Shown: piece by piece, positions 4,125 through 33,799 of the stretch | How the letters are laid out: every line of letters starts with the position of its first letter | Position numbering within the stretch: position 1 is the stretch's first letter | Assembly: GCA_017484085.1 (NCBI GenBank) | Contig: JAFUTW010000014.1 | Span: forward strand, 1-64,000 | Direction: 5' to 3' | From: Clostridia bacterium | GTDB taxonomy: Bacteria; Bacillota; Clostridia; Christensenellales; Aristaeellaceae | DNA: 64,000 nt | Position numbers and translations under genes: made by a program | Notes under the pieces: model-generated | What the model saw: only the letters and a program-made list of their open reading frames with translations | The model's database searches: none | Told to the model about the DNA's origin: nothing

Positions 4125-5195
4125 TCAGATGACCTTCTCCGTCTCCCCATCAAACAGGTACACGGCCGAGTACGGGATGTAGAAGGTGAAGGGCGCATCG
4201 GTCTCAGGGGTGTCATGGCTGTCCACCTTGAGGATGGCCTGCTGCTCGCCGACCTTGATGTAGACGTTGGTGTAATCGCCCAGCATCTCCGTAAGCTCCA
4301 CGTCGCAGTCGATCCGGTAGGCATCCTCCTGCGGCTGCAGGACGACTGCTTCAGGCCGGAAGCCGAAGACGATCTCTTTGCCCTCCATCTTCCCGATCTC
4401 CGGGCAGCGCGGGGTAAGATCGATCGAAGTCCCGCCAAAGCGGATGCTGCCGCCGGAAACCTTGCTGCGCACGAAGTTCATGGGCGGCTCGCCGATAAAC
4501 CCGGCGACGAACACGTTAGCCGGTTTGAAGTACAGCTCGTAAGGCGTGCCGATCTGCTGCACGTAGCCTTCCTTCATCACGACGATCTTGTCCGCCAGCG
4601 TCATGGCTTCCGTCTGGTCATGGGTGACGTAAATCGTCGTCGCGCCCGTCTCCCGGTGGATCTTCGCGATCTCGTAGCGCATCGTGACGCGCTGCTTCGC
4701 ATCCAGGTTGGAGAGCGGCTCGTCCATGAGGAAAATGCCGACCTTGCGGATGATGGCGCGCCCGATCGCGACCCTCTGCCGCTGGCCGCCCGACAGCGCG
4801 CGCGGCAGCCTGTCCAGGTAGTCCGTAAGGCCGAGGATCCTCGCCGTCTCTTTGACGCGCTTGTCGATGACGTCCTCATCAACGCCCTGCAGCGTCAGTC
4901 CGAAGGCGATATTGTCGTACACCGTCATCTGGGGATACAGCGCGTAGCTCTGGAAAACCATCGCCACCTTCCGCTCCCTGGGGCCCATCTCATTGGCGCG
5001 CTTTCCCTCGATCAGGAATTCGCCGTTGGAGATGTTCTCCAGGCCCGCGATCATCCGCAGCGTCGTGGATTTACCGCATCCGGAAGGGCCGACGAAAACC
5101 ACAAATTCTCCCTTCTCAATCTCCAGATTGAAGTTGTGTACCGCATGATACCCATTGGGATAGATCTTGTTAATGTTCTTCAGCTCGATATACAT
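4125..5195 (-). CDS. ABC transporter ATP-binding protein, MsmX/UgpC type (copy B)
   Basis: A 356-residue nucleotide-binding subunit of a CUT1-type carbohydrate importer. Walker A is GPSGCGKST near residue 37, the Q-loop is MVFQSYALYPQ, the signature is LSGGQRQRVAIGRA, Walker B is IFLMDEPLSNLDA and the switch is VTHDQ. The C-terminal 120 residues form the TOBE/OB-type regulatory domain of MsmX-like proteins. It energises uptake by docking to permeases such as those at 12.0-14.0 kb. This is the second ATPase in one locus, which is unusual because the pectin-oligosaccharide importers of this type usually rely on a single shared ATPase. It follows the GH105 gene by about 54 bases. Confidence 0.95.
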   Translation of the reverse strand: MYIELKNINKIYPNGYHAVHNFNLEIEKGEFVVFVGPSGCGKSTTLRMIAGLENISNGEFLIEGKRANEMGPRERKVAMVFQSYALYPQMTVYDNIAFGLTLQGVDEDVIDKRVKETARILGLTDYLDRLPRALSGGQRQRVAIGRAIIRKVGIFLMDEPLSNLDAKQRVTMRYEIAKIHRETGATTIYVTHDQTEAMTLADKIVVMKEGYVQQIGTPYELYFKPANVFVAGFIGEPPMNFVRSKVSGGSIRFGGTSIDLTPRCPEIGKMEGKEIVFGFRPEAVVLQPQEDAYRIDCDVELTEMLGDYTNVYIKVGEQQAILKVDSHDTPETDAPFTFYIPYSAVYLFDGETEKVI

Positions 5196-5249
5196 CCGGT
5201 TTGGCCTCCTTGACTGCTTCGTCCCTCAAGCGGGATCCGCTGAATCCGT

Positions 5250-6383
5250 TTACGCTTCGCTTCCGAGTCGCCTGATCTCGCTGTAGCACAGCACGAAGGG
5301 TGCGACCCCCTTTGCGTCGTTGCTGACCACAGGTTCTGAAATATAGTATTCATAAGAGCCGTCCCGCTCTTTGCCGCCCATCGTTCCGAGGCCCGCCACC
5401 AGGCAGATGTGGTCAAGCCCCATCCGGCCGTCCTCAAAGGTCAGGTGCCGCTGTGCCAGGCCGTCGAAGGTCTTCCGGCCCAGCCCGCGGTATTCGTCAT
5501 CCAGCACGCCGAGGCGCGCGCCTTTCAGCATGCTGTAGGCGATCATGGCACTGCCGCTGCTTTCCAGATAGTTTCCTTCCCGCCCCGGCTGATCCACGAC
5601 CTGCCAGTACAGGCCGGTTTCTTCGTCGCAGTAGGCGCGCAGGCTCCGCATGAGATCCCGGAGGATCTCCGCGATTTCTGCCGCGGCGTCCGCATCGGTC
5701 ACGATCTCGCACAGATCCGTGAGCGCCACGCTGAACCAGCCGATCGCCCTCAGCCAGAAGCTGCGGCTGAGGCCCGTCACCGGGTCCGCCCAGTAAGCCT
5801 TGCGGCTGTAATCGTAGCCGTGATAATACAGCCCCGTTTGGGGATCCCTCATCCGGTCCCGGACCGTCCGGATCTGTCTTACGATATCCGAGTAGTCGCC
5901 CTGCCCGAAATGCCGCTCATACAGCGCCTGGAACGGCATCGCCATGTAGATCCCGTCGAGCCAGACCTGGTTCGGATAGACTTCCTTGTGCCAATAGCTG
6001 CCTTCTCCTGTTCTCGGCTGTGCCTTCAGCGCGCGGTGAAGGGTCTCGGCCGCAAGGCGGTACTTCTCCTTCCCGGACTTCTGATAGACCGGGAAGAGCA
6101 CGCGTCCTTCGTTGATATCATCCAGCCGGTGCTTTTCCGCGTCGAAGCTGTCGATCGAGCCGTCGTCGCGCACATACGCGTCCAGCACGCTCTCGACAAA
6201 ATCCGCAAAGCTCTTTTCGCCGGTGATTTCCGACAGCGTCTGGAGTGCTGTCAGCATACAGCCGTCGATGTAGTTCCAGCCCGTCTTGCCCGGCCTGGTC
6301 AGGCGCTCCACGTTCCAGGCGGTCCGCTCCGGCGTGGACTGCTCCACAAGGCTTTGGATAAAGCGGTCTATTCTCTCATCCAT
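5250..6383 (-). CDS. Glycoside hydrolase family 105/88, unsaturated rhamnogalacturonyl hydrolase
   Basis: A 377-residue cytoplasmic-looking (no signal peptide) alpha6/alpha6 barrel enzyme of the YteR/YesR type. It removes unsaturated galacturonic acid from rhamnogalacturonan or pectin oligosaccharides made by lyases. The family motif NQVWLDGIYMAMPF, which holds the catalytic aspartate, is present around residue 140, with RSFWLRAIGWF and the SSGSAMIAYSMLKG region further on. The chosen ATG (6381-6383) has a GAGG site and lies 7 bases after the upstream membrane-protein stop. An in-frame ATG 12 codons earlier would overlap that gene. Its place inside the importer operon fits intracellular processing of imported oligosaccharides. 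Confidence 0.93.
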   Translation of the reverse strand: MDERIDRFIQSLVEQSTPERTAWNVERLTRPGKTGWNYIDGCMLTALQTLSEITGEKSFADFVESVLDAYVRDDGSIDSFDAEKHRLDDINEGRVLFPVYQKSGKEKYRLAAETLHRALKAQPRTGEGSYWHKEVYPNQVWLDGIYMAMPFQALYERHFGQGDYSDIVRQIRTVRDRMRDPQTGLYYHGYDYSRKAYWADPVTGLSRSFWLRAIGWFSVALTDLCEIVTDADAAAEIAEILRDLMRSLRAYCDEETGLYWQVVDQPGREGNYLESSGSAMIAYSMLKGARLGVLDDEYRGLGRKTFDGLAQRHLTFEDGRMGLDHICLVAGLGTMGGKERDGSYEYYISEPVVSNDAKGVAPFVLCYSEIRRLGSEA

Positions 6384-6390
6384 AACAACC

Positions 6391-7029
6391 TCAATGCTCC
6401 ATAACCCCGGCCTGTGCATCCCTCAGAATGCGCCTCGCCATCCGTTTGGCCGCCAGCAGGAGCAGATCCCATCCGGTGCAGAACAGCCCGAAGAAGATCG
6501 GCCCCACGCCCAGCGGGATCCGGTCCTGCGCTCCTGTCAAGGCGATCAGCAGGACATTTGCCGCGTTGTAGGTCAGCACCACCAGAAACAGGATGACGTA
6601 GCCGTACACGATATTGAGCGGCAGGGTGGCGTAGCTGTTCTTCGGGAACATCATCCACCGGTCGTTTTCTCCCGGCGTTTTGGCGTAAAACCGGAAGATG
6701 TTGTTGGTGAAGAGGTCCGTCACCGTCCCCAGCGCCAGCCCGACGATGATCAGCTGGTTCTCCCGGTTCGGCACGACGGTGCCGAGCCCCCACAGGAAGA
6801 AGAAGCAGACCGCACCGGCAAACCACCATTTGAGCAGGACCGCTTTCATCCAGTCGGACAGCCTGATCTTCGGGCCCGAACGGTACTTGCGCAGCTCCTC
6901 TTCGCTGACCTTGGGACTGTTGGACACATCCGCATTGACCAGATCGTCGACAGCCTTGGTCTTAAGATTATAATAATCGTTTATCTTCTCTTGCTCTTGA
7001 GGCGCCGACTTCCTGTTCTTTTTCGCCAT
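6391..7029 (-). CDS. Small four-helix membrane protein of the pectin ABC locus (M4)
   Basis: A 212-residue protein I do not recognise. The first 60 residues are soluble and charged (MAKKNRKSAPQEQEKIND, then a KVSEEELRKYRSG segment). About four membrane helices follow at roughly 63-85, 90-108, 135-158 and 172-195, with a GENDRWMMFPKNSY loop between helices 2 and 3. No enzymatic motif is seen. It starts four bases after the M3 gene stop and is followed seven bases later by GH105, so it is firmly within the operon. It could be an accessory subunit of the importer or a membrane scaffold; neither is shown. Confidence 0.75.
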   Translation of the reverse strand: MAKKNRKSAPQEQEKINDYYNLKTKAVDDLVNADVSNSPKVSEEELRKYRSGPKIRLSDWMKAVLLKWWFAGAVCFFFLWGLGTVVPNRENQLIIVGLALGTVTDLFTNNIFRFYAKTPGENDRWMMFPKNSYATLPLNIVYGYVILFLVVLTYNAANVLLIALTGAQDRIPLGVGPIFFGLFCTGWDLLLLAAKRMARRILRDAQAGVMEH

Positions 7030-7033
7030 CGGA

Positions 7034-7597
7034 TCATTCGTCTCCGTCGCCGGAGTCGATCACGCCCATGTCCTCGTTCGCCTCGACTTCGATCGAGGTG
7101 TTGATGCTCTTGATCCACTTGGAGTAGACCGGCAGCAGGGCCGTCAGCGCTGCGCCGATGATGACGATCACCGTATGCACCTTCAGCATGGCGGAAGCGC
7201 TCGTGATATAGCTGTTCGCCCCGGTCGGATCAATCGGGTTTTCGGCGCGTGTGACAGCCGCCGTGATCCTTCCGCCGTAATAGAAATCACAGTAGAGGAT
7301 GATCGCCAGCATCAGGTACATCAGCACCAGCATCGGGATATTGGTCTTCTTACGGTGAGGAAACGCGTTCATAAAGCAAACCAGGCTGAGGATAGACAGC
7401 AGCATGGTCGCAAACCCGGCCAGGCCCATGCCGGGGCCCTGGATTTTTGCGGTCGTGTTGGATACCTGCGTCAGATTCAGCGAATAGTAGAGGAAGGCGA
7501 TTCCGAGCGTGACCAGTGCGATCATCTGAGGCTTCCGCTTCAGGCTGACGATCCGCTTGCGGAGAAACTCGCTCATCCCGGAAGGCTGCTTTGCCAT
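7034..7597 (-). CDS. Small four-helix membrane protein of the pectin ABC locus (M3)
   Basis: An unrecognised protein of about 187 residues. A basic N-terminus (FLRKRIVSLKRKPQ) is followed by four hydrophobic helices (about 28-45, 60-80, 88-107 and 140-162) and an acidic tail (EANEDMGVIDSGDGDE). Two ATGs are possible. The first (7601-7603) forms an ATGA overlap with the ATPase-A stop. The second (7595-7597) has the better nine-base spacing from GGGAGG and is used here. Tight coupling to ATPase A upstream and M4 downstream suggests a common complex, but function is inferred from position only. Confidence 0.75.
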   Translation of the reverse strand: MAKQPSGMSEFLRKRIVSLKRKPQMIALVTLGIAFLYYSLNLTQVSNTTAKIQGPGMGLAGFATMLLSILSLVCFMNAFPHRKKTNIPMLVLMYLMLAIILYCDFYYGGRITAAVTRAENPIDPTGANSYITSASAMLKVHTVIVIIGAALTALLPVYSKWIKSINTSIEVEANEDMGVIDSGDGDE

Positions 7598-7599
7598 CG

Positions 7600-8673
7600 T
7601 CATTTTCCTCCCTTCCGGATCGCGTTCGTTGTCTCTTTATCGAAGAAGTGCTTCCGGCCCAGCTTTACCATGACCGTATCGCCGTCTTTGTAATCCGTCC
7701 ATCCGCGCAGCTTGGCCGTGATCCGGCTCCCGCCCGCCAGCGTGCCGTGCACGAGCGTGTTCATGCCGAGGTTTTCGTTGCTGAAGACCTTGACCGGCAG
7801 GTTTCCGCCCTCCGATACGTCCTCCGGGCGGACGCCCAGGGTGATCTCCTTGCCCACATAGCCCGCGATGGTCGCCTTCTCTTCATCGCTCAGCTCCACC
7901 GTGAAGCCTTTGCCCTTGAGTACGCCGTCCTCAAAGACGACATCGTAGAAGTTCATGGGCGGCAGGCCGATGAAGCCGGCCACAAATATGTTGTTCGGCG
8001 AATCGTAGAGCTCCAGCGGCGTACCGATCTGCTGAACATGACCCATGCTCATGCAGACGATACGGTCCGCAAGGGTCAGCGCTTCCGTCTGGTCGTGCGT
8101 GACGTAAAGCATCGTCGCTTTCAGGCGTTTGTGCAGCAGCAGGATCTCACGCCTCGTCGCGCCGCGCAGCTTCGCATCCAGGTTGGAAAGCGGCTCGTCG
8201 AAGAGGAAGACCTTGGGGCTGCGGACGATGCTGCGCCCCATTGCCACGCGCTGGCGCTGTCCGCCGGAAAGCTGAGCCGGCTTCTTGTTCAGCTGGCTGG
8301 TCAGCCCCAGGATATCCGCCGCCGCCAGCACCTTCTTATGGATGACGTTGACGTCTTCCTTGCGCAGCGTCAGCGAAAAAGCCATGTTCTCGTAGACCGT
8401 CATGTGGCCGTACAGCGCGTAGTTCTGGAACACCATGGCCATATCGCGGTCCTTTGCCGGCGTCTGGGTAATGTCCTTGCCGTCCAGCAGGAGCTTGCCC
8501 CTGGAGATGTCCTCCAGGCCGGCGACCATGCGCAGCGTCGTCGACTTGCCGCAGCCGGAAGGTCCGACCAGGACGATCAGCTCACCGTCCTTGACATCCA
8601 TATTGAAGTCAAAGACCGCCTGCACGTTGTTGTCGTAAATCTTATCCAGGTGCTGCAAACTCATTTGGGCCAT
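7600..8673 (-). CDS. ABC transporter ATP-binding protein, MsmX/UgpC type (copy A)
   Basis: A 357-residue carbohydrate ABC ATPase with GPSGCGKST (Walker A), MVFQNYALYGHMTV (Q-loop region), LSGGQRQRVAMGRS (signature), VFLFDEPLSNLDA (Walker B) and VTHDQ (H-loop), then a C-terminal TOBE domain. It resembles but is clearly distinct from copy B 2.4 kb downstream. The ATG follows the M2 stop by one base and has GGAGG nine bases upstream inside M2. Located between two pairs of small membrane proteins (M1/M2 and M3/M4), it may serve both the permeases and these unknown proteins. Confidence 0.95.
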   Translation of the reverse strand: MAQMSLQHLDKIYDNNVQAVFDFNMDVKDGELIVLVGPSGCGKSTTLRMVAGLEDISRGKLLLDGKDITQTPAKDRDMAMVFQNYALYGHMTVYENMAFSLTLRKEDVNVIHKKVLAAADILGLTSQLNKKPAQLSGGQRQRVAMGRSIVRSPKVFLFDEPLSNLDAKLRGATRREILLLHKRLKATMLYVTHDQTEALTLADRIVCMSMGHVQQIGTPLELYDSPNNIFVAGFIGLPPMNFYDVVFEDGVLKGKGFTVELSDEEKATIAGYVGKEITLGVRPEDVSEGGNLPVKVFSNENLGMNTLVHGTLAGGSRITAKLRGWTDYKDGDTVMVKLGRKHFFDKETTNAIRKGGK

Positions 8674-8674
8674 T

Positions 8675-9184
8675 TTATGCAGCCTCCTTTGCTTTCTGGG
8701 CCGTTAAGGTCTTCTCATACTCGGCCAGTGTCCTGCTCTTGTTCTGGTTGATCCACGCGGCCGCGATAAGGCAGCCTGCGCTGATCAGCAGATACAGGAC
8801 ACAGCGGATGAACTGCGCATTGCCCATCACCAGCGTCTCCACGTTGCTGACCTTGATCACGGCGCGGTGCGCCATGGAAGGAAGGATGAAGATGCGGATG
8901 ATCTGTCCGATCCCCAGGCCGTACAGCATCCAGCTGTAATTGGCCTTGTAGTTCTTGACGCCTTCGGATGACAGGAACGCCATCAGCATAAACAGCAGGT
9001 TGTAGACGATGGAGATGCCGATCAGCATCTGGTAATACCAGGAGCCGACATCCGACTGATATATTGAAACGAAATACAGAACATTCATCAGAATGGCCAG
9101 ATAGCAAAGTCTCGAGGAGGCCGTGTTTTTCACATAGCGCATCCGGTCCATCCGTATCTGGCGGTCATCCATGGCCTGTGTCAT
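8675..9184 (-). CDS. Small four-helix membrane protein of the pectin ABC locus (M2)
   Basis: A 169-residue protein with a charged start (MTQAMDDRQIRMDRMRYVKN), four membrane helices (about 27-43, 50-70, 83-103 and 125-145) and a Lys/Glu-rich cytoplasmic-looking tail. No family motif recognised. The ATG overlaps the M1 stop in an ATGA and has GGAAGGAGG upstream. The C-terminal tail of this gene also contains the ribosome site of ATPase A. Together these show strict translational linkage M1-M2-ATPase A. Confidence 0.75.
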   Translation of the reverse strand: MTQAMDDRQIRMDRMRYVKNTASSRLCYLAILMNVLYFVSIYQSDVGSWYYQMLIGISIVYNLLFMLMAFLSSEGVKNYKANYSWMLYGLGIGQIIRIFILPSMAHRAVIKVSNVETLVMGNAQFIRCVLYLLISAGCLIAAAWINQNKSRTLAEYEKTLTAQKAKEAA

Positions 9185-9771
9185 GCGGACGCCTCCTTCC
9201 CCTTTGCGATCAGGGTTTGTTCCTCTTTCATCAGTTTCCGTTTCCAGATGAGGTTTGCGATCAGCAGGATAATGCCGATGATCAGCAAACCGAAGACGAG
9301 ATAATGAATGTCAAACCAGAATGTAGATTCCGTATACAGGCTCTTTTTCTTCGCGGCGTTTTCGGCCAGCTCCTCGAAGTTGATCTGGAGGAACTGCGCT
9401 TTGTAGAATTCGATCTGCTTGTGCGCCCACGCCGTAAAGGCAACGCCGCACACCGCTACCAGACCGGTCGCCGCATAGTTGCCGATGTAGTACTTGCGGC
9501 GCGTGTGCGTGTTGGTTACAAACAGTGAAAGGCTGACGATGAGCATACCGATCGCCGCATGCAGGAAGTTCCGGTTGAATCCCTGCATATCGTAGTAGAT
9601 CCTGGATCCGGTCACCGTGGTCTTGTCCAGTTTCGCCGGGTTCCGGATCGTATTGTACAGCGCATCATACAGATCGGTCATAATCGCCAGCGAATAGAGA
9701 AAAATGAGCGCACAGATGATCAGTATCCCCAGGCACAGGATCTTCTGCAGTGCCACCTGTTTTTTATACAT
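9181..9771 (-). CDS. Small four-helix membrane protein of the pectin ABC locus (M1)
   Basis: A 196-residue protein of unknown function that starts at MYKKQVALQK with AGGAGG nine bases upstream; an in-frame ATG further up lies in the intercistronic hairpin and is rejected. Helices are near 12-32, 69-87, 96-114 and 155-175. A 37-residue polar loop follows helix 1 (DALYNTIRNPAKLD region) and a Glu/Lys-rich loop precedes helix 4. The layout of short helix pairs joined by polar loops resembles M2 and M3, but no clear sequence similarity was seen by eye. It is the first gene after the solute-binding protein. Confidence 0.75.
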   Translation of the reverse strand: MYKKQVALQKILCLGILIICALIFLYSLAIMTDLYDALYNTIRNPAKLDKTTVTGSRIYYDMQGFNRNFLHAAIGMLIVSLSLFVTNTHTRRKYYIGNYAATGLVAVCGVAFTAWAHKQIEFYKAQFLQINFEELAENAAKKKSLYTESTFWFDIHYLVFGLLIIGIILLIANLIWKRKLMKEEQTLIAKGKEASA

Positions 9772-9809
9772 ATACGACCGACCTCCTGAGGTTTGATTGA
9801 AGTGGGCCG

Positions 9810-9835
9810 GCTGCCCGGGGTTGCCCCCGGGCAGC
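9810..9835 (-). other. Strong intercistronic stem-loop downstream of the solute-binding protein gene
   Basis: An 11-bp GC-rich stem (GCTGCCCGGGG and its complement) with a 4-base loop lies between the binding-protein stop and M1. No U-tract follows on the minus strand, so it is unlikely to be a full terminator. Hairpins in this position commonly stabilise the 3' end of a processed binding-protein mRNA, allowing more binding protein than membrane subunits. Confidence 0.7.
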
Positions 9836-9846
9836 GGCAAAAGGTA

Positions 9847-11922
9847 TTACAGTTCCTCGTTGTAGTCCAGCAGAGCTTCCCAGGCGCCTTCCTTGATGTC
9901 CAGGTACTGGACGCCCATCATGGCGTCGGCAACGGTTTCAGCCGCTTCTTCGGGGCTGCCCATGCCTTCCGCGGTGAAGCCCTTCGCGATGATGTCGACC
10001 AGAACATTCTCCTGGTCCTTGTTCTGCATGAACTTGTTGTTCAGGTCCGTGTATTCGCCCAGCTGCTGGTTCTCAGTGGTCGTCGTCGGCAGGATGGTCG
10101 GAACGGAAGTGTACCACGGATTCTCGGCGATCTCCAGCAGCGGATGCTTGATGGTGCCGAGGCCGATGGCCGTGGAGATCTTGCCCGCGCCCTCTTTGCC
10201 GACTTCGTGCGTGCACTGATACTCAAACGCCTGGCTCTTCATGAAGCTCAGCGTGGAGCCGAGGTAGAAGCGGGCATAGTTGGTGTAGTTGCCGGAAGCC
10301 TTCTCCCAGAGCTCCGCATAGGTCGCGTCCGCGATCACGGGCATCTCCTGTCCGTTGAACACGAAGGTCTCGTAGCTGCCGTCTTCCTTCGTCTTGATGA
10401 AGGCGTCCGGGCCGTAGCTCATCAGGATCGTTCCTTCCGGAGAGTAGGCGAAATCGATGAGGGACAGCGCAGCGTTCAGCTTGTTCTCGTCATCGCCGAT
10501 GCCGGCCTTGGAGATTCCCCAGCCGTCGGTCTTGACGGAGCGCCAGCTCTCGGTAAAGCGCATGTAAACGCCGTCCTCGCTCGTGCCGTCGTACCAGTGT
10601 GCGACAGGTACCATGACCGCCATGTACTTTTCGCCGGCCGCGGCGTCCAGCTTGGTGTTCAGGATCGTCTGGGTCTGGTTGTAGTCGTAGTGCATGAAGC
10701 CGAGGTCTTCCTCGAGATAGTTCGAGCTCTTGACGTCCTCGCCGTTGATGAACGCCTGGGAGAGCAGGCCCTCCTGCGCCATGTCGTGCATACGGGACAT
10801 CGCCTCGTACGTCGCCACTTCCTGACGCGCGTCGTGCATTTCCTCGTCAGCGCCGACATAGAGGTAGTCCTGACGGGACTCCAGGCCGCGCACGCCGAAG
10901 AGATGGCCGGCCAGGCGCATCATATCGACGCGGCGCTGGTTGTTGGCGTCCTCACGGCTGAAGATGCCCTGCACCATTTCGGTGCCGTTCAGCGTCTGCG
11001 GGTTCGCCACGACGCAGCGCAGCAGCGCGACGAGCTCATCCACGTCCCAGGCCGCGTTCTGTCCGATGAACAGGTCCGCGCGCTCGGTGCCGTAGTATCC
11101 GTCATAAGCCTCGTCGATGTAAGTGCGCAGCATGTTGACGGCGGCCACGCCGTCCAGAGCGCCGGCTTCGTTCATCTTTGCGACGATGTTGCCGGCCTTG
11201 TCGTAATTCTTGGCGATGGTCTCCACGCCGGTGCCGTCCGGTGTCACCACGTCGATGGAAACGCTGCCCTCGGTGGGCATGTAGGGCTGATAGACAGGCG
11301 CCGCCAGCGGCTTGCACGCGTCAGCGGTGAACTCGCCTTCGCCGTTCAGCAGCTTCGTGACCCAGTCCACGCGCATGAGCGGCATACGCTCGATGTCGTT
11401 AACGCCGTCGAAATAGGGGCTGAAATAGATGGCGCCGGTATCCGTGTTGCCCGTGATGGACAGACGGACGATCGGGTTGGCGTCCAGATAAGCCTTGAAG
11501 TTGGGCATATCCTCGAGGTAGTCGGCGATGTTGACGACGAGGCCCGCCTCGCCGGCTTCGCTCAGCTTGGCCGCCGTGCCGGAGAGCATGTCGACGTCGC
11601 CCATCTTCTCTTTCCAGTAATCAAATTCCTTCGTCGCGCTGTTGCCCTGGTACACGCTGTCGAATTTGATGCCGAGCTTGTCCTGAACCGCCACCCAGGT
11701 GGGCTTCAGGTCGCCGGAGTTGTACGTCTTGCCGTCCGCGAGCGTGATGCCCTCGCCCGCGACTTCCGGATCGAACGTCAGACCGGTTTTCGCATTGTTG
11801 TAGCCGGTGCCCATGCGAAGCGTTGTTCCCTCATCATAAGAGAGCTCCGCAGAAGCGATGCTGGCCATGGCAAACACCATCGTCAGCGCCAGAAGAAGAG
11901 AAACGACCTTGGATGCTTTCAT
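9847..11922 (-). CDS. Large extracellular solute-binding protein (carbohydrate ABC importer)
   Basis: A 691-residue secreted binding protein, longer than the usual 400-550 residues of YtcQ/LplA-type proteins. A classical type I signal peptide (MKASKVVSLLLALTMVFAMA, cleavage likely after ASA at about residue 25) is present. No lipobox cysteine is seen, so it is predicted soluble after export. The ATG has AGGAGG. Placement directly after two YteP/YtcP-type permeases and before the accessory membrane proteins indicates that it captures the imported oligosaccharide, probably a rhamnogalacturonan or pectin fragment given the neighbouring GH105, GH28, CE8 and CE12 genes. The exact ligand cannot be read from sequence. 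Confidence 0.88.
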   Translation of the reverse strand: MKASKVVSLLLALTMVFAMASIASAELSYDEGTTLRMGTGYNNAKTGLTFDPEVAGEGITLADGKTYNSGDLKPTWVAVQDKLGIKFDSVYQGNSATKEFDYWKEKMGDVDMLSGTAAKLSEAGEAGLVVNIADYLEDMPNFKAYLDANPIVRLSITGNTDTGAIYFSPYFDGVNDIERMPLMRVDWVTKLLNGEGEFTADACKPLAAPVYQPYMPTEGSVSIDVVTPDGTGVETIAKNYDKAGNIVAKMNEAGALDGVAAVNMLRTYIDEAYDGYYGTERADLFIGQNAAWDVDELVALLRCVVANPQTLNGTEMVQGIFSREDANNQRRVDMMRLAGHLFGVRGLESRQDYLYVGADEEMHDARQEVATYEAMSRMHDMAQEGLLSQAFINGEDVKSSNYLEEDLGFMHYDYNQTQTILNTKLDAAAGEKYMAVMVPVAHWYDGTSEDGVYMRFTESWRSVKTDGWGISKAGIGDDENKLNAALSLIDFAYSPEGTILMSYGPDAFIKTKEDGSYETFVFNGQEMPVIADATYAELWEKASGNYTNYARFYLGSTLSFMKSQAFEYQCTHEVGKEGAGKISTAIGLGTIKHPLLEIAENPWYTSVPTILPTTTTENQQLGEYTDLNNKFMQNKDQENVLVDIIAKGFTAEGMGSPEEAAETVADAMMGVQYLDIKEGAWEALLDYNEEL

Positions 11923-12012
11923 CGTTGGATTTGACCTCCTTTAAGTCTCCGTCAGCCTCTTACGGCCGCGGAAGCTGCTTTATCTGCACCCGATTCTCAC
12001 GGGCCACATTCA

Positions 12013-12903
12013 TTACTCCTTCACGCCGCCGACGTTCGTGCCCTTGGCGAAGTACTTCTGGATGAAGGGATAGATGATGAGGATCGGCACGATGGAGCAG
12101 ACGATGAGCGCGTAGATGACGCTGTCAGAGGCATACGCCCTGTTCCAGCCGGCCATCTGCTCCGGGTCCGTATACTGCTCCAGCTGCAGGCGGATGAAGA
12201 CCTGCAGCGGGTGCTCGTTCTGGTTGCTGATCATCTGTCTGGCCCAGAAGTATCCGTTCCAGCGGCTGATCGCAAAGAACAGCGCGACGGTCGCGATCGT
12301 CGATTTGCTCATCGGGATGTAGACCTGCCCCAGGATCTGGAACTCGGTCGCGCCGTCGACAATCGCGGCTTCCTCGATCTCGCTGGGCACGTTTTCAAAC
12401 GCGTTGCGCAGCAGGATGATGTTCATGGCCGCCATGCCCATGGCGATGACCACCAGCCACTTGTCGTCCATGATGCCCACGGAGCGGAAGACCTTCTGCG
12501 TATCCAGGTAATTGAGGTACTGCGGCACGATGCCTGCCGAGAACCACATGGTGAAGACAAGGAAGAAGTTGAAGAACTTGCGGAAGAGCAGCCGCTTCTT
12601 CGAGAGCGCGTACGCGCCCAGGATCGACACGCCCAGCGCCCAAACGGTTCCGTACAGCGTAAGGAACAGCGTATTGGAATACGCGTTCCAGAACATGTTG
12701 TTTCCGAACATCATCGAGAACGCTTCGAACTGTATATCCTTCGGGAAGAGGACCACCTCGCTGTACTCCACCGCGTGGCGGCCGGAGATGGAGGCGGATA
12801 CCGCATACAGGAAGGGATACAGGCACATGAGGGCGAAGACCGTCAGCAGGACGTAGCTGACAATCTTGAAGATGAGTTCGGAAACTTCCAGTTTTCTTTT
12901 CAT
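12013..12903 (-). CDS. Carbohydrate ABC transporter permease, LplC/YtcP type
   Basis: A 296-residue CUT1 permease with about six helices. The cytoplasmic EAA loop that contacts the ATPase is visible (EIEEAAIVDGATEFQILGQV, residues about 195-215), as is the conserved TMWFSAGIVPQYL region. It ends in the usual FAKGTNVGGVKE tail of the YtcP/LplC group. It pairs with the permease gene 19 bases upstream to form the heterodimeric channel. ATG start with AGGAG about ten bases before. Confidence 0.95.
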   Translation of the reverse strand: MKRKLEVSELIFKIVSYVLLTVFALMCLYPFLYAVSASISGRHAVEYSEVVLFPKDIQFEAFSMMFGNNMFWNAYSNTLFLTLYGTVWALGVSILGAYALSKKRLLFRKFFNFFLVFTMWFSAGIVPQYLNYLDTQKVFRSVGIMDDKWLVVIAMGMAAMNIILLRNAFENVPSEIEEAAIVDGATEFQILGQVYIPMSKSTIATVALFFAISRWNGYFWARQMISNQNEHPLQVFIRLQLEQYTDPEQMAGWNRAYASDSVIYALIVCSIVPILIIYPFIQKYFAKGTNVGGVKE

Positions 12904-12921
12904 TCGAACTCTCTCCTCTCT

Positions 12922-13977
12922 TTAATACAGCGATGTGTTGGACGCCTTGCGCGCGATGGTGTTCGCGCCGATGACGAGCAGCATGCCGACCACGTTGTTC
13001 ATCATTTCCGCAGCGGAGGCGATGCCTGTTCCGGCGCCGCCGGAGAGGCCCGTCCTGTACGCCAGGGTGGAGATGACGTCCGCCGTGACATACGTCTTGG
13101 TGTTGTAGAGCAGCAAGACCTTTTCGTAGCCGATGTTCAGCAGGCTGCCGATCCGGGTGATCAGCATGATGACGATCGTGGAGAGCATGCAGGGGATAAC
13201 CACGTAACGCATCTGCGCCATCTTGCCCGCTCCGTCGATCTGCGCCGCTTCATAGCTCGTGGGCGAGATCGCGATGATCGCCGCGAAGAAGACGATGCTG
13301 TCGTAGCCCGCGCTTTCCCAGATGCCGCTGATCTGGTAGATCGCGCGGAAGAATCCGGGGTTGTTGAGCAGGCCTGCATTGCCGACCTCCTCGGTGATGA
13401 GGCCCAGCTTGACCAGCGCCTGGCTCACGATGCCCATCTGGCCGATGAGCGAGCCCTGCTTGACCAGCATGGTCACCAGGGAGGTCATGACGACCGTGGA
13501 CATGAACTTCGGCAGATATGTCATCACCTGATAGACGCTGCGCGCCGCGTTGGACCGGATCTCGTTGAAGAACAGCGCCAGGATGATCGGCATGGGGAAG
13601 CCGAAGCACAGCCCGTAGAAGCTGAGCAGGAAGGTGTTGCGCATGGCCATCCAGAAGTTGGCGCTCAGGCTGTCCCCGCCGACCAGCAGCCGCTTGAAGT
13701 AGCTGACGCCGCAGAACAGCTGCTCGCTGACCGGGAGAACCGTGTCGGACACTTTGAAGCAGCCCAGCAGTTCATACATGGGGAAATAACGCCAGAACAG
13801 GAAGACCAGCAGCATGGGGATCATCATGACGTACAGCCGCCAGTCCTTCGCGATCGCCCTTCCGACATTCAGCCAGTAGTGCTTCTCCACGTCATCCCGG
13901 ACAGCCTGCTCGGGGCTTTCGCGGTACGTGCCCGTCGCCTTGTCCAGAATAAGGTAGTCTGTTGCATTCCCCTTCAT
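12922..13977 (-). CDS. Carbohydrate ABC transporter permease, LplB/YteP type
   Basis: A 351-residue CUT1 permease, partner of the downstream LplC-type gene. A 45-residue N-terminal extension precedes the first helix (residues about 50-68). The EAA loop is SYEAAQIDGAGKMAQMRYV near residue 240, and the GYEKVLLLYN region near the C-terminus is typical of the YteP/LplB group. The ATG overlaps the upstream stop as ATGA, and AAGGAGG precedes it. In Bacillus, YteP/YtcP import rhamnogalacturonan oligosaccharides, consistent with this locus. Confidence 0.95.
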   Translation of the reverse strand: MKGNATDYLILDKATGTYRESPEQAVRDDVEKHYWLNVGRAIAKDWRLYVMMIPMLLVFLFWRYFPMYELLGCFKVSDTVLPVSEQLFCGVSYFKRLLVGGDSLSANFWMAMRNTFLLSFYGLCFGFPMPIILALFFNEIRSNAARSVYQVMTYLPKFMSTVVMTSLVTMLVKQGSLIGQMGIVSQALVKLGLITEEVGNAGLLNNPGFFRAIYQISGIWESAGYDSIVFFAAIIAISPTSYEAAQIDGAGKMAQMRYVVIPCMLSTIVIMLITRIGSLLNIGYEKVLLLYNTKTYVTADVISTLAYRTGLSGGAGTGIASAAEMMNNVVGMLLVIGANTIARKASNTSLY

Positions 13978-14558
13978 CGAACTCCTCCTTCAGGGTCCCG
14001 GGGTTCATTGACCCGGGCCAGATAGTGTTTTTGATCCTCCAGCATTCCGTCCATCCGCGATGCGATCCACACGATCAGCATCGTAAAAACATAAGAAAGC
14101 ACGTCGGTCGTGATAAAGCCCAGCGCGATGACCGGCGCCGTCCCCAGCAGGATGGACACCAGCCCTCTGCCCGCCTGCATGCCCAGCAGCACGAGGGCGC
14201 TGTAGAGCAGGTTCATCCAGGAGACGTTTCGGATCCGCTCCCATCCCCACCGGCGGATCAGCGGCAGGGCCGTCAGGCACAGCAGGTTTCCGAGCCCGTA
14301 AATGGCAAACTGCCGCAGGGTCCCGTGAGAGCACAGCGCAAAGACGATGCCGCCCAGCATTGCGTGTAGCGCGCCCCACGGGCCCCACCGGATCATCACG
14401 ATGGCAGTGACCGCCGCCACGGACGATACGCTCCAGGCTTCAGCGGAAAACCACACGTTTGATGCGTGTACGATCAGGCTTTCAAAGACGATCAGGATGA
14501 GGGCAAACATCGAAAGATCGATCGCGCGGTATGCCCCAAGGGTCCTTTGCCTCTCCAA
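13974..14558 (-). CDS. Membrane protein resembling an ECF S component, first gene of the pectin ABC operon
   Basis: A 194-residue protein with about six helices starting at TTG, with GGAGG seven bases upstream. The motif IRWGPWGALHAMLGG and the overall layout resemble S components of energy-coupling-factor transporters, but this is by eye and I do not claim a substrate. A charged C-terminus (residues about 165-194) follows the last helix. As the promoter-proximal gene it is overlapped by the YteP-type permease (ATGA). No EcfT or EcfA genes are near, so if it is an S-like protein it either borrows another module or has a different role here. Confidence 0.6.
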   Translation of the reverse strand: MERQRTLGAYRAIDLSMFALILIVFESLIVHASNVWFSAEAWSVSSVAAVTAIVMIRWGPWGALHAMLGGIVFALCSHGTLRQFAIYGLGNLLCLTALPLIRRWGWERIRNVSWMNLLYSALVLLGMQAGRGLVSILLGTAPVIALGFITTDVLSYVFTMLIVWIASRMDGMLEDQKHYLARVNEPRDPEGGVR

Positions 14559-14675: not shown

Positions 14676-16271
14676 TCATTTCGCCGGATTCACAGCTTCC
14701 TGTTTATGTATGTCATCTGTCCCTTCACGGATGACGACGCTGCCGCAGTCCAGAGCATCGACCGCCTCCCCCTCGATACCGTCCAGCGTGACGTTTTCAA
14801 ACTCGGCCTCGCCGACCCATCTCAGGATCAGCCCCCGCCGGGAAACCGACTCGACCCCTTCCGCCATCGCCGGCTGCATCGGTTCCTCCTCCCCCAAGAA
14901 GGAAAAGGCGCAGTCCTTCATCACAAGGTGCCCGACGGGCCGCTCCGGAAGCCCCAGCGCGTACGCCGCCGAAGCTTTGCAGCCCGTGGCGCGGACACGT
15001 TCGAAGGTGATGCTCCCGATCGTCGGCGTCGTATCGTCGACCGGCTGTTTTTCCCTGCTCTGCACCCATTGCGTGCTTCCGTCCGGGTCGCAGTGGTAAA
15101 AGCTGTTGATGACCAGCGGCGCCTTGACGCCGTCCATGGCGACATCCCTGAAGGTGATCCCGTCCACGACGCCGTGCTTTCCCCTGCCCCGCCTGGTCTT
15201 GACGCGCAGGCCCCGGTCGTTCCCCCGCATATAGCAGTGATGGACCTGCACGTTCCGGATGCCGCCGGCCATCTCGCTGCCGAGGGTCACGCCGCCGTGT
15301 CCGTCCAGCATGGCGCACCAGGCGATCTCGATGTCCTCGCATGGGATGTGATACCGGCTGCCCAGGTAGATTTTCCCGGACTTGATCGCGATGCAGTCGT
15401 CGCCGACCGAAAACTCCGCGCCCAGCAGCCGCACCCTGCTGCAGCTCTCCGGGTCAAAGCCGTCCGTATTCGGGCTGTGGTAGGGCGCCTTCACCCGCAC
15501 ATTCAGAAAATCCAGCCCGGTGCTGAAGGCGGGGTGCAGGTTCCAGCAGGGGCTGTTTTCAAAGGTTACGCCCTGTACGGTGATGTTTTCGCACCGCTGC
15601 AGGAAAAAGAGATTGCCGCGGAACGCGCCTTTCACCTTCTTGTGGTCGATCCACCAGTCCCCTTTGTCGGCCTGTCCGTCCACCACGCCCGCTCCGATGA
15701 CGGCGGTATTGCGGATGCCGATGCCGTTCAGCGCGCCGGCAAAGCAGTCGAGCGGGTTGCCCTCGAACAGGCCCAGAATGACCTCGCCCTGCTCGTCCGT
15801 CGTACGGGTCACACCGGGCAGGATGGGGAACCGCTCCCTGTCCGTCAAAAGCCGCAGCCGGGCGCCTTCCTTCAGTTCCAGCGTCATGTCGCTCTTCAGA
15901 AACAGCGGCCCCGTGAGATAATCCCCGCGCGGCAGGAATACGCGTCCGCCCGCCGGGCAGCTGAGGATCGCCGCCTGCAGCATGGCCGTGTCGTCGCTCT
16001 TCCCGTCTCCCTTCGCGCCGAAGCGCCGGACATCCAGCGAGCAGGTTTCCTCTTGCGTCCGGAACACCAGCTTTTCCGTCCGGTTCCCGCAGCGGCTTTC
16101 CAGCCGGTACTCCGTATCCGGCCACAGGCCGAAGAGCGAGCAGACGGAACGCTTCTCCTCGCCCAGTTCCTTTCCGTTCAGCACAAGGCTGTGCGGCTCC
16201 CGCGCCTCATAAGCCCCTTCGGGATCCAGCAGGACCGTCACACTGCGGGACGAGCAAAACAGTTTTTTCAC
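14676..16271 (-). CDS. Polygalacturonase, glycoside hydrolase family 28
   Basis: A 531-residue GH28 enzyme that hydrolyses galacturonan. Residues about 1-75 look like a fibronectin-III-type N-terminal domain, followed by the beta-helix. Catalytic landmarks are SPNTDGFD, VGDDCIAIKSG with the paired aspartates, DGHGG with the histidine, and LRVKT. There is no signal peptide, so it may act inside the cell on imported oligogalacturonides, like exo-acting GH28 enzymes of similar architecture. The GTG start overlaps the upstream stop (GTGA) and has GGAGGG seven bases before. It is the last gene of the second pectin operon. Confidence 0.95.
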   Translation of the reverse strand: MKKLFCSSRSVTVLLDPEGAYEAREPHSLVLNGKELGEEKRSVCSLFGLWPDTEYRLESRCGNRTEKLVFRTQEETCSLDVRRFGAKGDGKSDDTAMLQAAILSCPAGGRVFLPRGDYLTGPLFLKSDMTLELKEGARLRLLTDRERFPILPGVTRTTDEQGEVILGLFEGNPLDCFAGALNGIGIRNTAVIGAGVVDGQADKGDWWIDHKKVKGAFRGNLFFLQRCENITVQGVTFENSPCWNLHPAFSTGLDFLNVRVKAPYHSPNTDGFDPESCSRVRLLGAEFSVGDDCIAIKSGKIYLGSRYHIPCEDIEIAWCAMLDGHGGVTLGSEMAGGIRNVQVHHCYMRGNDRGLRVKTRRGRGKHGVVDGITFRDVAMDGVKAPLVINSFYHCDPDGSTQWVQSREKQPVDDTTPTIGSITFERVRATGCKASAAYALGLPERPVGHLVMKDCAFSFLGEEEPMQPAMAEGVESVSRRGLILRWVGEAEFENVTLDGIEGEAVDALDCGSVVIREGTDDIHKQEAVNPAK

Positions 16272-16780
16272 AGCGCAGCCCTCCTGTGTTCTTCCGCGGC
16301 CATCGCATAAGCCTCCCCGTCCGCAGGCAGCCTGCAAAACGCATCGAATGCCGGTTCAAGATAACGCTCCTCATCCAAAAGCCCCAGGCGGATCCCTTTC
16401 AGGACGGCATAGACGGCAAGCGGATCCTGCCGCCCCTCCGAGCGCACAAAGGCCTGCGCCGCCTCCAGCAGCAGGTCCGCCAGGCAGCGGTAATGCTCAT
16501 AGATCTGTATATCCATCTGCTCAACCGTATCGGCCAGCGCCGCCATATAAGCGCCGTCGCAGATGCCCTCCCCGCCGGGGCGCTTTCTCGCCTCGGTAAA
16601 CAGCCGCGCGATGTGCCCCGCTTCCAGGCTCTTCTGGCATACGGCGTCATAGGCGGCATACGCGCTGCCATAACGCAGCAGATTCTGCGGCAGCGCCTGT
16701 TCCGCTTCCGGCAGCGCCTTCATTTTCTGCGTCAGCCGTTTCAGCCGGTCCATGTCCTGCTTTTCCCAAAGCGTCTTCAT
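16268..16780 (-). CDS. Small helical protein with GH105-like C-terminal region
   Basis: A 170-residue all-helical protein with no signal peptide. Its C-terminal stretch AVYAVLKGIRLGLLDEERY lines up with MIAYSMLKGARLGVLDDEY of the GH105 enzyme at 5.25-6.38 kb, and an earlier segment around GICDGAYMAA weakly recalls WLDGIYMAM. The family's WLDG aspartate motif and most of the barrel are absent, so catalytic activity is unlikely. It may be a shrunken GH105 derivative or a non-catalytic relative kept in pectin operons. Its stop overlaps the GH28 start, and GGAGGG lies just before the ATG. Confidence 0.65.
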   Translation of the reverse strand: MKTLWEKQDMDRLKRLTQKMKALPEAEQALPQNLLRYGSAYAAYDAVCQKSLEAGHIARLFTEARKRPGGEGICDGAYMAALADTVEQMDIQIYEHYRCLADLLLEAAQAFVRSEGRQDPLAVYAVLKGIRLGLLDEERYLEPAFDAFCRLPADGEAYAMAAEEHRRAAL

Positions 16781-16843: not shown

Positions 16844-18556
16844 TCAGCAGCCTTTGTCCTTTACGACGTCATCCTCTCGGAGGATGAGTTCCTCCAGGCC
16901 GTCGCCCGCATCTTGCGATGCGCCTCCCGGACGCCATTGTTTTCCCGCAAGCCCGTCGAGAAAGAGCTTTGCGATTCTGACAGCACCGCGTTCCTGCAGA
17001 TGGCTGTCGTCCGCGCGCCCCTCCGGATAGTTCGGGCTGCCCGCAGGCACGTGGCAGTAGATGCTTTTGCTCCCCTCCGGTCCTTCGCCTGACAGCAGCT
17101 CCGTCGTCGCACTCTCCAGATCGACCAGGCGCACACCGAGGCTTTCCGCCGTCCGGCGCATGGCCGAAGGATACGCCCCGTGTGTGGGAACGGGCTTTCC
17201 GGATGCGTCAAAGCGCCGCCTTGCGATGGACGTCACGAGGATGGGCTCCACCCCTTTCTGCCTCGCCGTATCGATGTAGAGGCCCAGGCACTCCCGATAG
17301 GTGCTTTCGGGGTCTGTATGGCGCGCTTTGTCCGGCTTTTCGTCGTTGTGACCGAAGCAAACGATCAGCTTGTCGCCCGCCCTGAGACAGCACTCTATAT
17401 AATGAAGGCGCTGCTCCGTGATAAAGCTTTTGCTGGAGCGGCCGTTCACCGCCTCGTTCTGGATGAAGACCGTCCCGTCCGTCAGGGCCTGCAGCTTCTG
17501 CCCCCACCCCGTCATCGGATAGGCTTCCGCTGGATAATCCGCCATGGTCGAATCCCCGCAGAGGAACCAGGTCGGCACACGCCTGTCCGGCCGCCAGCCG
17601 TCGAATCCGCCGATCACCTCCGGCAGGTTCAGGATCTGCGCCTCTTCATCCGTCAGCTGCCGCTCGCCCGGGTGCCGCATCTCAAGGGATGCCCGCGCGC
17701 CTTCCGTCCGCCACTCCCCGCAGCGGTCCGTCACCCGGCGCTCCTCATCCCAGTCGCAGAAGCCGCAGGGTGCAACGCACGCATCCATCCGGCACTCGAG
17801 AAAGACCGTCCTGGCAAACCGCCTCCAGGGCCTCCCTAGGAATGCGGCGCCTGCAGCGCATTCTCCCGTCAGCGTGCAGCGGTGAAACACCATGCCGTAG
17901 GGCTGGTGCTCCGGCGTGTTGGCCGCCGTATAGTACCCGCCGTGCCGGTTCATGAACAGAGTGCACCGCTCAAACCAGCAGCGGTACGGCCCGAAGATGA
18001 AATCGATATCCCCGCGGATAAAGCAGTCTTCAAAGTAGAGGCGGCCATGCGTCACCGGGCTGTCGCCGACGCTCGGCACGCACTCGGCGGAGCTGATCCT
18101 GGGCGCGGTGTCCGCATTCACCTTTTCCATCACGGGGCCGCAGAACAGCGTATCCTGATGGGCGATCAGGTCGCAGTTCCGCCAAACGCCGCGGTCTCCG
18201 GCAGCGTAAACGGCAACGGCCTGTCCCGCCGTGCTGCCGTCTCCCGCGTCATTTCGCACGGTCAGGTTCTCCACCTCGACGTTCTTCCCCGTAACGATCA
18301 GCGTCGCGGAGAGAAAGGTCCCCCGGGGCGTCCCGTCCGGAGCCGGATCCTTTGCACAGCCGGAGGCCGTGAGGACCGTCTCCTTCCGGTCTTCGCCGAC
18401 GATGCGAAGGTTGTCCTTATGGATGACGACCCGGCCCGTATATACCCCTTTACGGATGAGCAGCAGGGTCGGCGCCCGGTCCCCCTCCGGTATCCGGTCG
18501 ATCGCCTCCTGTATATCGGTAAAATCTCCGCTTCCATCCCTGGCTACGACAAACAT
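16844..18556 (-). CDS. Pectin methylesterase (CE8) fused to SGNH rhamnogalacturonan acetylesterase (CE12-like)
   Basis: A 570-residue two-domain de-esterifying enzyme. The N-terminal beta-helix (residues about 1-310) has the pectinesterase catalytic set: GQAVAVY, HQDTLFCG, GDIDFIFG and FLGRPWRR. After a short linker an SGNH hydrolase (about 345-540) shows FLCGDSTM, GRSSKSF, FGHNDEK and a late DDSH catalytic pair. No signal peptide is seen at the preferred ATG (18554-18556, GGAAGGA upstream), so cytoplasmic action on imported fragments is likely. A longer upstream frame overlaps the isomerase gene and is rejected. It would strip methyl and acetyl groups before GH28/GH105 cleavage. Confidence 0.93.
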   Translation of the reverse strand: MFVVARDGSGDFTDIQEAIDRIPEGDRAPTLLLIRKGVYTGRVVIHKDNLRIVGEDRKETVLTASGCAKDPAPDGTPRGTFLSATLIVTGKNVEVENLTVRNDAGDGSTAGQAVAVYAAGDRGVWRNCDLIAHQDTLFCGPVMEKVNADTAPRISSAECVPSVGDSPVTHGRLYFEDCFIRGDIDFIFGPYRCWFERCTLFMNRHGGYYTAANTPEHQPYGMVFHRCTLTGECAAGAAFLGRPWRRFARTVFLECRMDACVAPCGFCDWDEERRVTDRCGEWRTEGARASLEMRHPGERQLTDEEAQILNLPEVIGGFDGWRPDRRVPTWFLCGDSTMADYPAEAYPMTGWGQKLQALTDGTVFIQNEAVNGRSSKSFITEQRLHYIECCLRAGDKLIVCFGHNDEKPDKARHTDPESTYRECLGLYIDTARQKGVEPILVTSIARRRFDASGKPVPTHGAYPSAMRRTAESLGVRLVDLESATTELLSGEGPEGSKSIYCHVPAGSPNYPEGRADDSHLQERGAVRIAKLFLDGLAGKQWRPGGASQDAGDGLEELILREDDVVKDKGC

Positions 18557-18602
18557 GGTATTTCCTTCCTTCTCATTGTGGCCGCGCCCGAAAAGCGGCC
18601 CT

Positions 18603-19451
18603 TCAAATCCCCATCTGCCGGGCTGTCCGCTCCAGGAAGAGACGGCTTGCCTGTGCATTCTCGGGTTTCGTGTTTTCCAGCGTTATCGGCAGGCCGTTGG
18701 CGGCCGCCAGGCGCAGCAGGGCATCATAGTACATGTGTCCTGTGCCGCAGGCGACCGGCGTCGGCCTGGGGGCCCCGGGATCAGGGACAAAGTCCTTGAA
18801 GTGCAGCACAGCGGTGCGCTCTCCCAGCCTTCGGACGGCATCCGTGATGATGTCCTCTGCGCAATCCACGTGCGCCGAGTCGATGAGATTGACCGCATCC
18901 AGGATGATTTTTACCCTGTCACAGCCGAGGTCGGAAAGCATGCGCTCCGCCAGCGGCGCATCATGGATGATGTGGCTGCACACCGGCTCGACCGCCAGGT
19001 CCACGCCTTCCTCCCGCGCAAAGCGGGCCACAGGCCGGATGCGCTCCAGAAACAGCTGATAGAGCGCCTCCGTATGGCAGGCTTCACCTTCCCCTGCGGC
19101 AGCGGGCGCCGGCGGGGTCTCCGTCCCCACGCATCCGGCGCCCATCCAGCCCGCAAAGCGCAGGTGCGCTTCGTAGATTCGTCGCGTCTTCTCAGCGGCC
19201 GCGTTGTCCGGATCCGCGAGCTTCAGATAGCAACCCAGCACCGCGCAGCCGATGCCCCTGTCTTCCAGCGCGCCGCGCACTTTGCCGGCGAGCTCCCGCG
19301 TCAGCAATTCCGGCGCATCCTGCATCTTAAAGCCGGGGATCACCTTCTGCATCGCCAGATGGATGCACGAAAAGCCCTGCTGCCGGACAGCGTCCAGCCG
19401 TTCCTCCGGCGTGCCGGGCAGCGTGTCGTGCAGCCTGATACCGATATTCAT
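18603..19451 (-). CDS. Sugar phosphate isomerase/epimerase family TIM-barrel protein
   Basis: A 282-residue protein of the xylose-isomerase-like TIM-barrel superfamily (AP endonuclease 2 fold). Metal-binding acidic and histidine residues are visible in VEPVCSHIIHD, KIILDAVNLID, LHFKDF and the final ITLENTKPEN strand. Such enzymes interconvert keto and aldo sugars or epimerise them. Between the AKR-like gene and the pectin esterase it probably acts on a pectin-derived sugar or uronate, but the substrate is unknown. ATG start with GGGAG upstream. Confidence 0.85.
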   Translation of the reverse strand: MNIGIRLHDTLPGTPEERLDAVRQQGFSCIHLAMQKVIPGFKMQDAPELLTRELAGKVRGALEDRGIGCAVLGCYLKLADPDNAAAEKTRRIYEAHLRFAGWMGAGCVGTETPPAPAAAGEGEACHTEALYQLFLERIRPVARFAREEGVDLAVEPVCSHIIHDAPLAERMLSDLGCDRVKIILDAVNLIDSAHVDCAEDIITDAVRRLGERTAVLHFKDFVPDPGAPRPTPVACGTGHMYYDALLRLAAANGLPITLENTKPENAQASRLFLERTARQMGI

Positions 19452-21750: not shown

Positions 21751-21827
<77 letters not shown>

Positions 21828-33719: not shown

Positions 33720-33799
33720 AGAACATGACCTCCTTTTTCTATGTTCACAGGCTCTGCCTGCGAAAAACAAACGGTATCCGTCAGCCTTCTGACAGAGAG

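Follow-up and report, generated by a model that had tools for sequence, protein, structure and literature searches.

An operon for a probable dedicated importer of acidic pectic oligosaccharides with two ATPases and five candidate extra membrane subunits

INTRODUCTION

A textbook type I ATP-binding cassette (ABC) importer consists of a solute-binding protein (SBP), two permeases and an ATPase dimer. In the alginate importer of Sphingomonas sp. A1, AlgM1-AlgM2-(AlgS)2 functions with AlgQ1/AlgQ2; its motor is an AlgS homodimer, and the available portion of the source names no further membrane subunits (PMC7055323). The same portion describes TogMNAB of Dickeya dadantii as an importer of pectic oligomers. 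The pectin importers of Bacillus subtilis, as far as the accessible text of PMC5730181 goes, have one SBP, two permeases and the shared multitask ATPase MsmX, with YtcQP-YteP linked to the use of polygalacturonan and rhamnogalacturonan. In energy-coupling factor (ECF) transporters, an EcfAA'T module is joined by an S component (available part of PMC4820897), and the S-component fold is also used by sensor kinases (5TMR) and MreD scaffolds (available part of PMC11109136). Here, we present a computational analysis of an operon in a window of 64,000 nucleotides (the whole stretch of DNA analyzed; contig JAFUTW010000014.1, positions 1 to 64,000) from a Clostridia bacterium. The operon, S-YteP-YtcP-SBP-M1-M2-A-M3-M4-GH105-B, encodes a permease pair, an SBP, two ATPases (A and B), a glycoside hydrolase of the GH105 type and the small membrane proteins S and M1 to M4. 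We argue that it probably encodes one dedicated importer, in which A and B would form a joint motor and S and M1-M4 would be five extra membrane subunits.

The original prediction for this locus took Bacillus-type importers as its reference. The composition that it gave for them, one SBP, two permeases and a shared MsmX, agrees with the accessible text of PMC5730181, but the nearest solved relative by sequence of the permeases and the SBP is instead the AlgM1/AlgM2/AlgQ2 alginate importer. The likeness to the latter lies in the heterodimeric permease and a probably acidic polysaccharide cargo; unlike the alginate importer, the present system has two ATPase clades, S, M1-M4 and a longer SBP. 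By description rather than by sequence, it also resembles YtcQP-YteP/MsmX in combining an SBP, two permeases and an MsmX-type ATPase. Unlike in that system, A is encoded in the operon, between M2 and M3, and is not a shared ATPase borrowed from elsewhere; the accessible text names no YtcQP-YteP counterpart of S or M1-M4 (PMC5730181). TogMNAB, likewise compared by description and not by sequence, is similar in being an ABC importer of pectic oligomers, and no S or M1-M4 is named for it in the available portion of PMC7055323.

RESULTS

The operon is conserved in content and order

All named open reading frames (ORFs) lie on the minus strand in one operon order, from S (13974..14558) to B (4125..5195). 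The original prediction had described one coupled transporter set, and its coordinates, overlaps and gaps were confirmed from the ORFs: ATGA overlaps join S to YteP and M1 to M2, and gaps of 1, 2, 4, and 7 bases separate M2/A, A/M3, M3/M4, and M4/GH105, respectively. None of S, the SBP and M1-M4 reaches a Pfam or NCBIfam cut-off, and scans of every member of the S and M1-M4 alignments gave just scattered weak family matches. In comparisons with three relatives, the ratio of nonsynonymous to synonymous substitution rates (dN/dS) was <0.4 for all operon genes where measurable and ranged from 0.05 to 0.38 for S and M1-M4 (1 of 15 values saturated); this purifying selection argues that S and M1-M4 are real genes.

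From an M1 scan of bacterial and archaeal genome contigs, the best 80 of 117 relatives were kept. Gene order was then scored with profiles in 133 loci, all found through M1 or M4 and not independent because some share one genome. The set S-YteP-YtcP-SBP-M1-M2-A-M3-M4 was complete and in order in 79 of these 133 loci, with A always flanked by M2 and M3. Of these complete sets, 62 have a scored GH105 and 57 a scored B. Among the 54 incomplete loci, 22 from the first scan are cut by contig ends, 30 (L231-L260) are short, and the remaining two are L190 and L230, the latter on a contig of 3.3 kb. All internal genes are present in 52 of the 54, and the genes absent from these fall past the end of the stretch; the other two (L190 and L231) are one place, a divergent variant discussed below. 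Among loci found through M1 or M4, the gene arrangement is far beyond chance, and hitchhiking or chance grouping of the extra genes was rejected on the basis of their order and co-occurrence.

Among 200 genomes from the order of the window, matches to M1 occur in 9, to M2 in 10, to M3 in 11, to M4 in 10 and to S in 9, and all five are common to the same nine genomes. The matches beyond these nine are in G182 (M2, E 5.9e-4), G112 and G131 (M3, short stretches) and G079 (M4, E 1.7e-14). A wider M4 profile matched in 24 of 347 genomes; of the 14 new places fetched, 13 hold the full set and one is a short contig. M1-M4, which the original prediction had singled out, lie with ABC genes wherever a confident match was followed. 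At the weak match in G182, a weakly M2-like membrane protein (L191:8964-9524; E 3e-5 in the locus) has no ABC set around it. The relatives' records are named Clostridia, Clostridiales, Erysipelotrichaceae, Solobacterium, Sphaerochaetaceae, Spirochaetales, Gemmiger and others, and nearly all are metagenome or uncultured assemblies. Two strain-named carriers, Bullifex porci strain NM-380-WT-3C1 (Spirochaetota) and Erysipelotrichaceae bacterium NK3D112, look like isolates, an argument against a binning artefact. Overall, the distribution of the system is sparse and scattered, but where it occurs, it is intact.

The permeases and SBP resemble those of the alginate importer

YteP (12922..13977) and YtcP (12013..12903) are BPD_transp_1 permeases (both score above the PF00528 cut-off). 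YteP matches the AlgM1 chain of 4tqu (E 1.4e-60, with the alignment starting at residue 40), and YtcP matches AlgM2 (E 1.2e-76). For the SBP (9847..11922; 691 residues), a profile of 27 SBPs matches AlgQ1 (E 6.9e-11) and AlgQ2 (E 2.5e-10), with AlgQ1/AlgQ2 matches ranging from 6.9e-11 to 4.5e-10, while 5gx8, 5gub and like SBP chains are matched more weakly. These matches place the core among importers of the acidic-polysaccharide type. As judged by sequence, the permeases, the ATPases and the related SBP identify the system as an SBP-dependent type I ABC importer of the MalFGK/AlgM1M2 kind.

About 40 conserved N-terminal residues of YteP are unmatched by AlgM1, although the 4tqu chain may be a shortened construct and full-length AlgM1 may differ less. 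Residues 1-50 of YteP include a strongly conserved stretch, D.L..D.....Y...PEQ.VRDDVEKHYW, which is a possible contact site for the extra subunits. The signal peptide of the SBP lacks a lipobox, as do those of 26 of its 72 untruncated relatives (22 Clostridia-like records and 4 Spirochaetales) under a loose lipobox pattern and with 8 truncated SBPs excluded. Two further SBP-like ORFs in the window, at 32700-33809 and 35470-36420, appear on visual inspection to lack a lipobox as well.

The two ATPases are intact and form separate clades

The original prediction of two MalK/MsmX-type ATPases is borne out by the family models: A (7600..8673) and B both have ABC_tran and OB/TOBE domains (Pfam), and their closest NCBIfam model is that of the UgpC subfamily (431.1 bits for A, with a cut-off of 432, and 446.2 for B). 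The catalytic motifs are intact. Each of the five is present in 75/75 A sequences; among 59 B sequences, Walker A is found as written in 52, LSGGQ in 58 and the other three in all 59. The 75 A and 59 B sequences are separated by 37 near-fixed differences, and the two residues following YALY are GH in every A and PQ in every B of these close relatives. Two trees were built, each on a sample of the A and B sequences; in the second, A forms a clade of 27 sequences (support 0.995) and B a clade of 25 (support 1.0). The first tree lacked nine ATPase ORFs removed by a motif filter, four of which are the B orthologues L115-L118; the second included these four and L190 and was built without the other five and also without L110 and L111.

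Both ATPases had been predicted to be local, as they are in the window. In every one of the 79 complete sets, A keeps its place between M2 and M3; B can lie apart from the core block. A B orthologue was present in 8/8 tested genomes (55-81% identity), and in seven further genomes, it lay within the fetched flanks in four (G660, G689, G735, G754). Among the 22 of 79 complete sets without a scored B, 11 have B elsewhere in the genome, three have a partial B at the locus end (L019, L061, and L078; blastp), four have it in the fetched flanks, three do not and one ends with its contig. For the sets in which B was recovered, we reject the idea that it is an optional extra. B most likely serves this importer.

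Other related ATPases were noticed. A further MalK-like ATPase occurs in L134, L135, L136, and L140 (genomes G145, G158, G014, and G193, respectively); it is 39-45% identical to B where listed, lacks LSGGQ and the THDQ H-loop and is apparently degenerate. The window's own genome also encodes two MsmX-like ATPases (L100 and L101) with 53% and 55% identity to A. Their 1.5-kb flanks contain no member of the operon's families, and both are candidate shared motor ATPases.

M1-M4 belong to no described family

M1 (9181..9771) is predicted to form four long helices (mean predicted local distance difference test score 90.2). M2 (8675..9184) and M3 (7034..7597, alternatively from 7603) have four main hydrophobic regions, while M4 (6391..7029) has a ~60-residue N-terminal tail and three such regions, the first of which is long enough for two helices. 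By sequence, no solved relative of M1 or M2 was found at E 1, and Foldseek returned nothing for M1 at E 0.001; its best structural rows were designed four-helix bundles, with uroplakin, PRPH2-ROM1, CD20, and TARP lower, and we claim no family from these. Weak sequence matches of S, M3, and M4 to solved structures, such as that of S to EMC4 (E 0.014), were judged to be chance. In agreement with the original prediction, M1-M4 have no described family.

YteU/YesV, the accessory proteins of Bacillus pectin loci, are DUF624 membrane proteins; DUF624 is not among the listed Pfam matches of any M1-M4 alignment member at E 0.01. Duplication among S and M1-M4 was rejected (hhalign probability ≤1.9 in all ten pairs), as was kinship of M1-M4 to the permeases, with no profile similarity to YteP/YtcP. 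The distribution of charges suggests that both ends of M1 are inside, and it is less clear for M2-M4. With loop borders set by hand from hydropathy, positions conserved at ≥90% make up 27/74 of the outer-loop, 19/43 of the inner-segment and 18/79 of the membrane positions in M1, and 12/63 of the N-terminal tail and 20/83 of the membrane positions in M4.

S is predicted to have the fold of ECF S components

The first gene of the operon encodes S, a 194-residue membrane protein. The original prediction had labeled it "S-like" and counted four unrecognized proteins; S is predicted to have the S-component fold of ECF transporters and is a further unrecognized candidate subunit, the fifth. The likeness to ECF S components, and to the 5TMR and MreD proteins that share their fold, lies in this predicted fold. 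Unlike in ECF transporters, S is encoded with an SBP-dependent permease pair, and no operon protein matches the EcfT family in Pfam (the genome was not searched for EcfT). In addition, the AxxxA motif described for S components (available part of PMC11109136) is not conserved in helix 1 of S, where it occurs in at most 8 of 62 sequences at any position. The C-terminal tail of S (residues 170-182), past the last predicted membrane helix, has D170, G171, E174, Q176, Y179, and R182 in 62/62 sequences.

DISCUSSION

A dedicated importer and its alternatives

In the mechanism that we propose, the cargo of the dedicated importer would be acidic pectic oligosaccharides, among which oligogalacturonides are the likeliest. 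A chain captured by the AlgQ-like SBP would be handed over to the AlgM1/AlgM2-like YteP/YtcP pair, which would be powered by the specialized ATPase pair; as the simplest reading, we infer an A:B heterodimer with one ATPase beneath each permease. S and M1-M4 would surround this core as constitutive extra membrane subunits. S probably lends the pocket or surface of its S-component fold as a docking element within the membrane, without toppling on an ECF module, and M1-M4 probably make up a collar, in contact with the SBP face on the outside and with the ATPases on the inside, that would aid the passage of a long charged chain. In the cytoplasm, GH105 together with the KduI/KduD and Uxa routes would break down the cargo.

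Several observations weigh against this mechanism. The sister relation of A and B seen in the first tree was dropped because their joint clade has a support of 0.247 in the second tree, and the pair after YALY fails as a marker in distant relatives (AH, HQ, or PQ in A; PH or PN in B). Among 15 genomes whose first-scan locus had no B, 12 have an orthologue, and three have none at E 1e-110; moreover, B is absent from the fetched flanks (up to ~19.5 kb per side) of G658, G668, and G700, and the contig of G717 ends. The failure of the YALY marker and the lack of B near four of eight further loci lower our confidence. Core operons without the two proteins that seeded the locus search, M1 and M4, would be missed by it, and in a phylum-wide sample of 398 genomes, M1 occurs in the window's own genome and in 0/397 others. 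Within M1-M4, structure prediction covered M1 alone, and conserved positions occur on the outer as well as the inner face of the membrane, a pattern that would suit partners on both sides. The dN/dS of S is the highest of the core genes versus L010 (0.25) and L011 (0.38), but not versus L014. Finally, the diverged locus L190 has a single ATPase and no S within 20 kb, and in the uronate clusters of L146 and L148, MatE-type transporters (L146:4414-5835 and L148:11073-12470), not ABC parts, adjoin B, so the neighbors of B do not prove its partner.

Of the alternatives, the one that survives best, although we regard it as rather unlikely, is that S and M1-M4 are assembly, stability or regulatory factors, i.e., helpers or sensors and not standing parts, and that the motor may be a homodimer of A or B. 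The use of the S-component fold in sensor kinases and MreD scaffolds fits this explanation, as does the lack of a conserved AxxxA in S; also, S has a higher dN/dS than the permeases versus all three relatives, and M4 likewise versus the two where it was measurable. Against it, all five proteins keep a strict order and co-occur with the core, and the operon itself holds no regulator gene (no search was made further off).

An embedded second machine had been offered as an option in the original prediction. We consider improbable a version of it in which A works as a separate ABC system with M1-M4 and perhaps S while B drives YteP/YtcP as MsmX does in Bacillus. The position of A between M2 and M3, the separate encoding of B in the manner of a shared MsmX, and the pairing of an S component with the EcfAA'T module in ECF transporters (available part of PMC4820897) would all suit such a machine. 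Yet, M1-M4 show no similarity to YteP/YtcP at the profile level, their Pfam matches to transporters are few and weak (e.g., EamA in 2/56 M1 and ThrE in 2/61 M4 members), and every confident M1-M4 match was accompanied by YteP/YtcP/SBP if the stretch extended to their position. Moreover, A is MalK-type with an OB fold, and such ATPases pair with EAA-loop permeases. That M1-M4 hold or anchor the non-lipidated SBP at the membrane is very improbable: although the window's SBP and more than a third of its untruncated relatives show no lipobox, M1-M4 do not track this loss, and 46 of the 72 untruncated relatives with the same M1-M4 have a lipobox.

Returning to the dedicated importer, we tentatively raise the possibility, which we do not favor as strongly, that it represents a new importer class for acidic polysaccharides with a nine-subunit core, an AlgM1/AlgM2-type pore and an S-component-fold subunit in one machine, two dedicated ATPases and a membrane collar of M1-M4. 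In open-access literature searches, none of the titles and abstract beginnings among the matches listed described such accessory subunits or linked a protein of the S-component fold to an SBP-dependent sugar importer. Should S and M1-M4 prove to be standing subunits, the importer would have seven kinds of membrane subunit instead of two, and the S-component fold would be placed inside an SBP-dependent sugar importer. The passage of long charged chains through a narrow ABC pore in bacteria is, to our knowledge, an unsettled problem, for which the operon offers a natural system with candidate parts. Also, six protein families left blank by Pfam and NCBIfam gain profiles, in rumen and gut pectin users.

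If such a class exists, the diverged locus L190 (genome G079) would show the collar as a reusable module. L190:1746-12721 encodes YteP, YtcP, an SBP, M1-like (E 4e-9) and M2-like (E 5e-8) proteins, an ATPase that scores alike with the A and B profiles, and M3-like (E 6e-4) and M4-like (E 9e-18) proteins; downstream are proteins with DUF4962 and Hepar_II_III_C domains (heparinase II/III-like). From this gene content, the M1-M2-ATPase-M3-M4 block seems able to work in a different importer, whose cargo may be an acidic polysaccharide cleaved by a lyase. The variant is a single divergent example: a search of 224 family genomes with its M4 turned up itself as the one strong match, besides 45 weak matches. 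Of the latter, 29 became loci, with M3 beside M4 in all and A in 27.

Cargo and surroundings

The original prediction pointed to rhamnogalacturonan as the cargo, while the neighboring enzymes favor galacturonides. In the window, the operon includes a GH88/GH105-type unsaturated uronyl hydrolase (5250..6383; PF07470, E 9e-84), and on the same strand lie a GH28 polygalacturonase-family protein (14676..16337; PF00295, E 1.2e-36) and a pectinesterase fused to a GDSL/SGNH esterase in one protein (16844..18658; PF01095 and PF13472). In six analyzed regions where B lies outside the core block, it is found among uronate-catabolism-like genes, which makes galacturonides the likelier cargo. Among ten proteins from L143, L144, and L148, family scans identified a pectinesterase, a UxaC-type isomerase, an altronate/galactarate dehydratase, a tagaturonate reductase, KduI, a 2-keto-3-deoxy-6-phosphogluconate (KDPG) aldolase, a kinase resembling 2-keto-3-deoxygluconate (KDG) kinase, KduD, a GH4 protein and a TIM-barrel protein; in ten more proteins, UxaC was found in L144 and L146 and KduI in L145 and L147. 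Given the window's GH28, pectinesterase and GH105 and the relatives' KduI, KduD, UxaC, tagaturonate reductase and altronate/galactarate dehydratase, we favor galacturonides over rhamnogalacturonan. Our best guess is that saturated and unsaturated galacturonides are imported, and rhamnogalacturonan pieces may be as well. Outside the operon, no ORF in the six B regions reached E 1e-5 with the profiles of YteP, YtcP or the SBP, and the family scan covered part of their ORFs. With regard to riboswitch control, an Rfam scan of the window gave two tRNAs only, which are tandem genes at 21669-21742 and 21754-21827.

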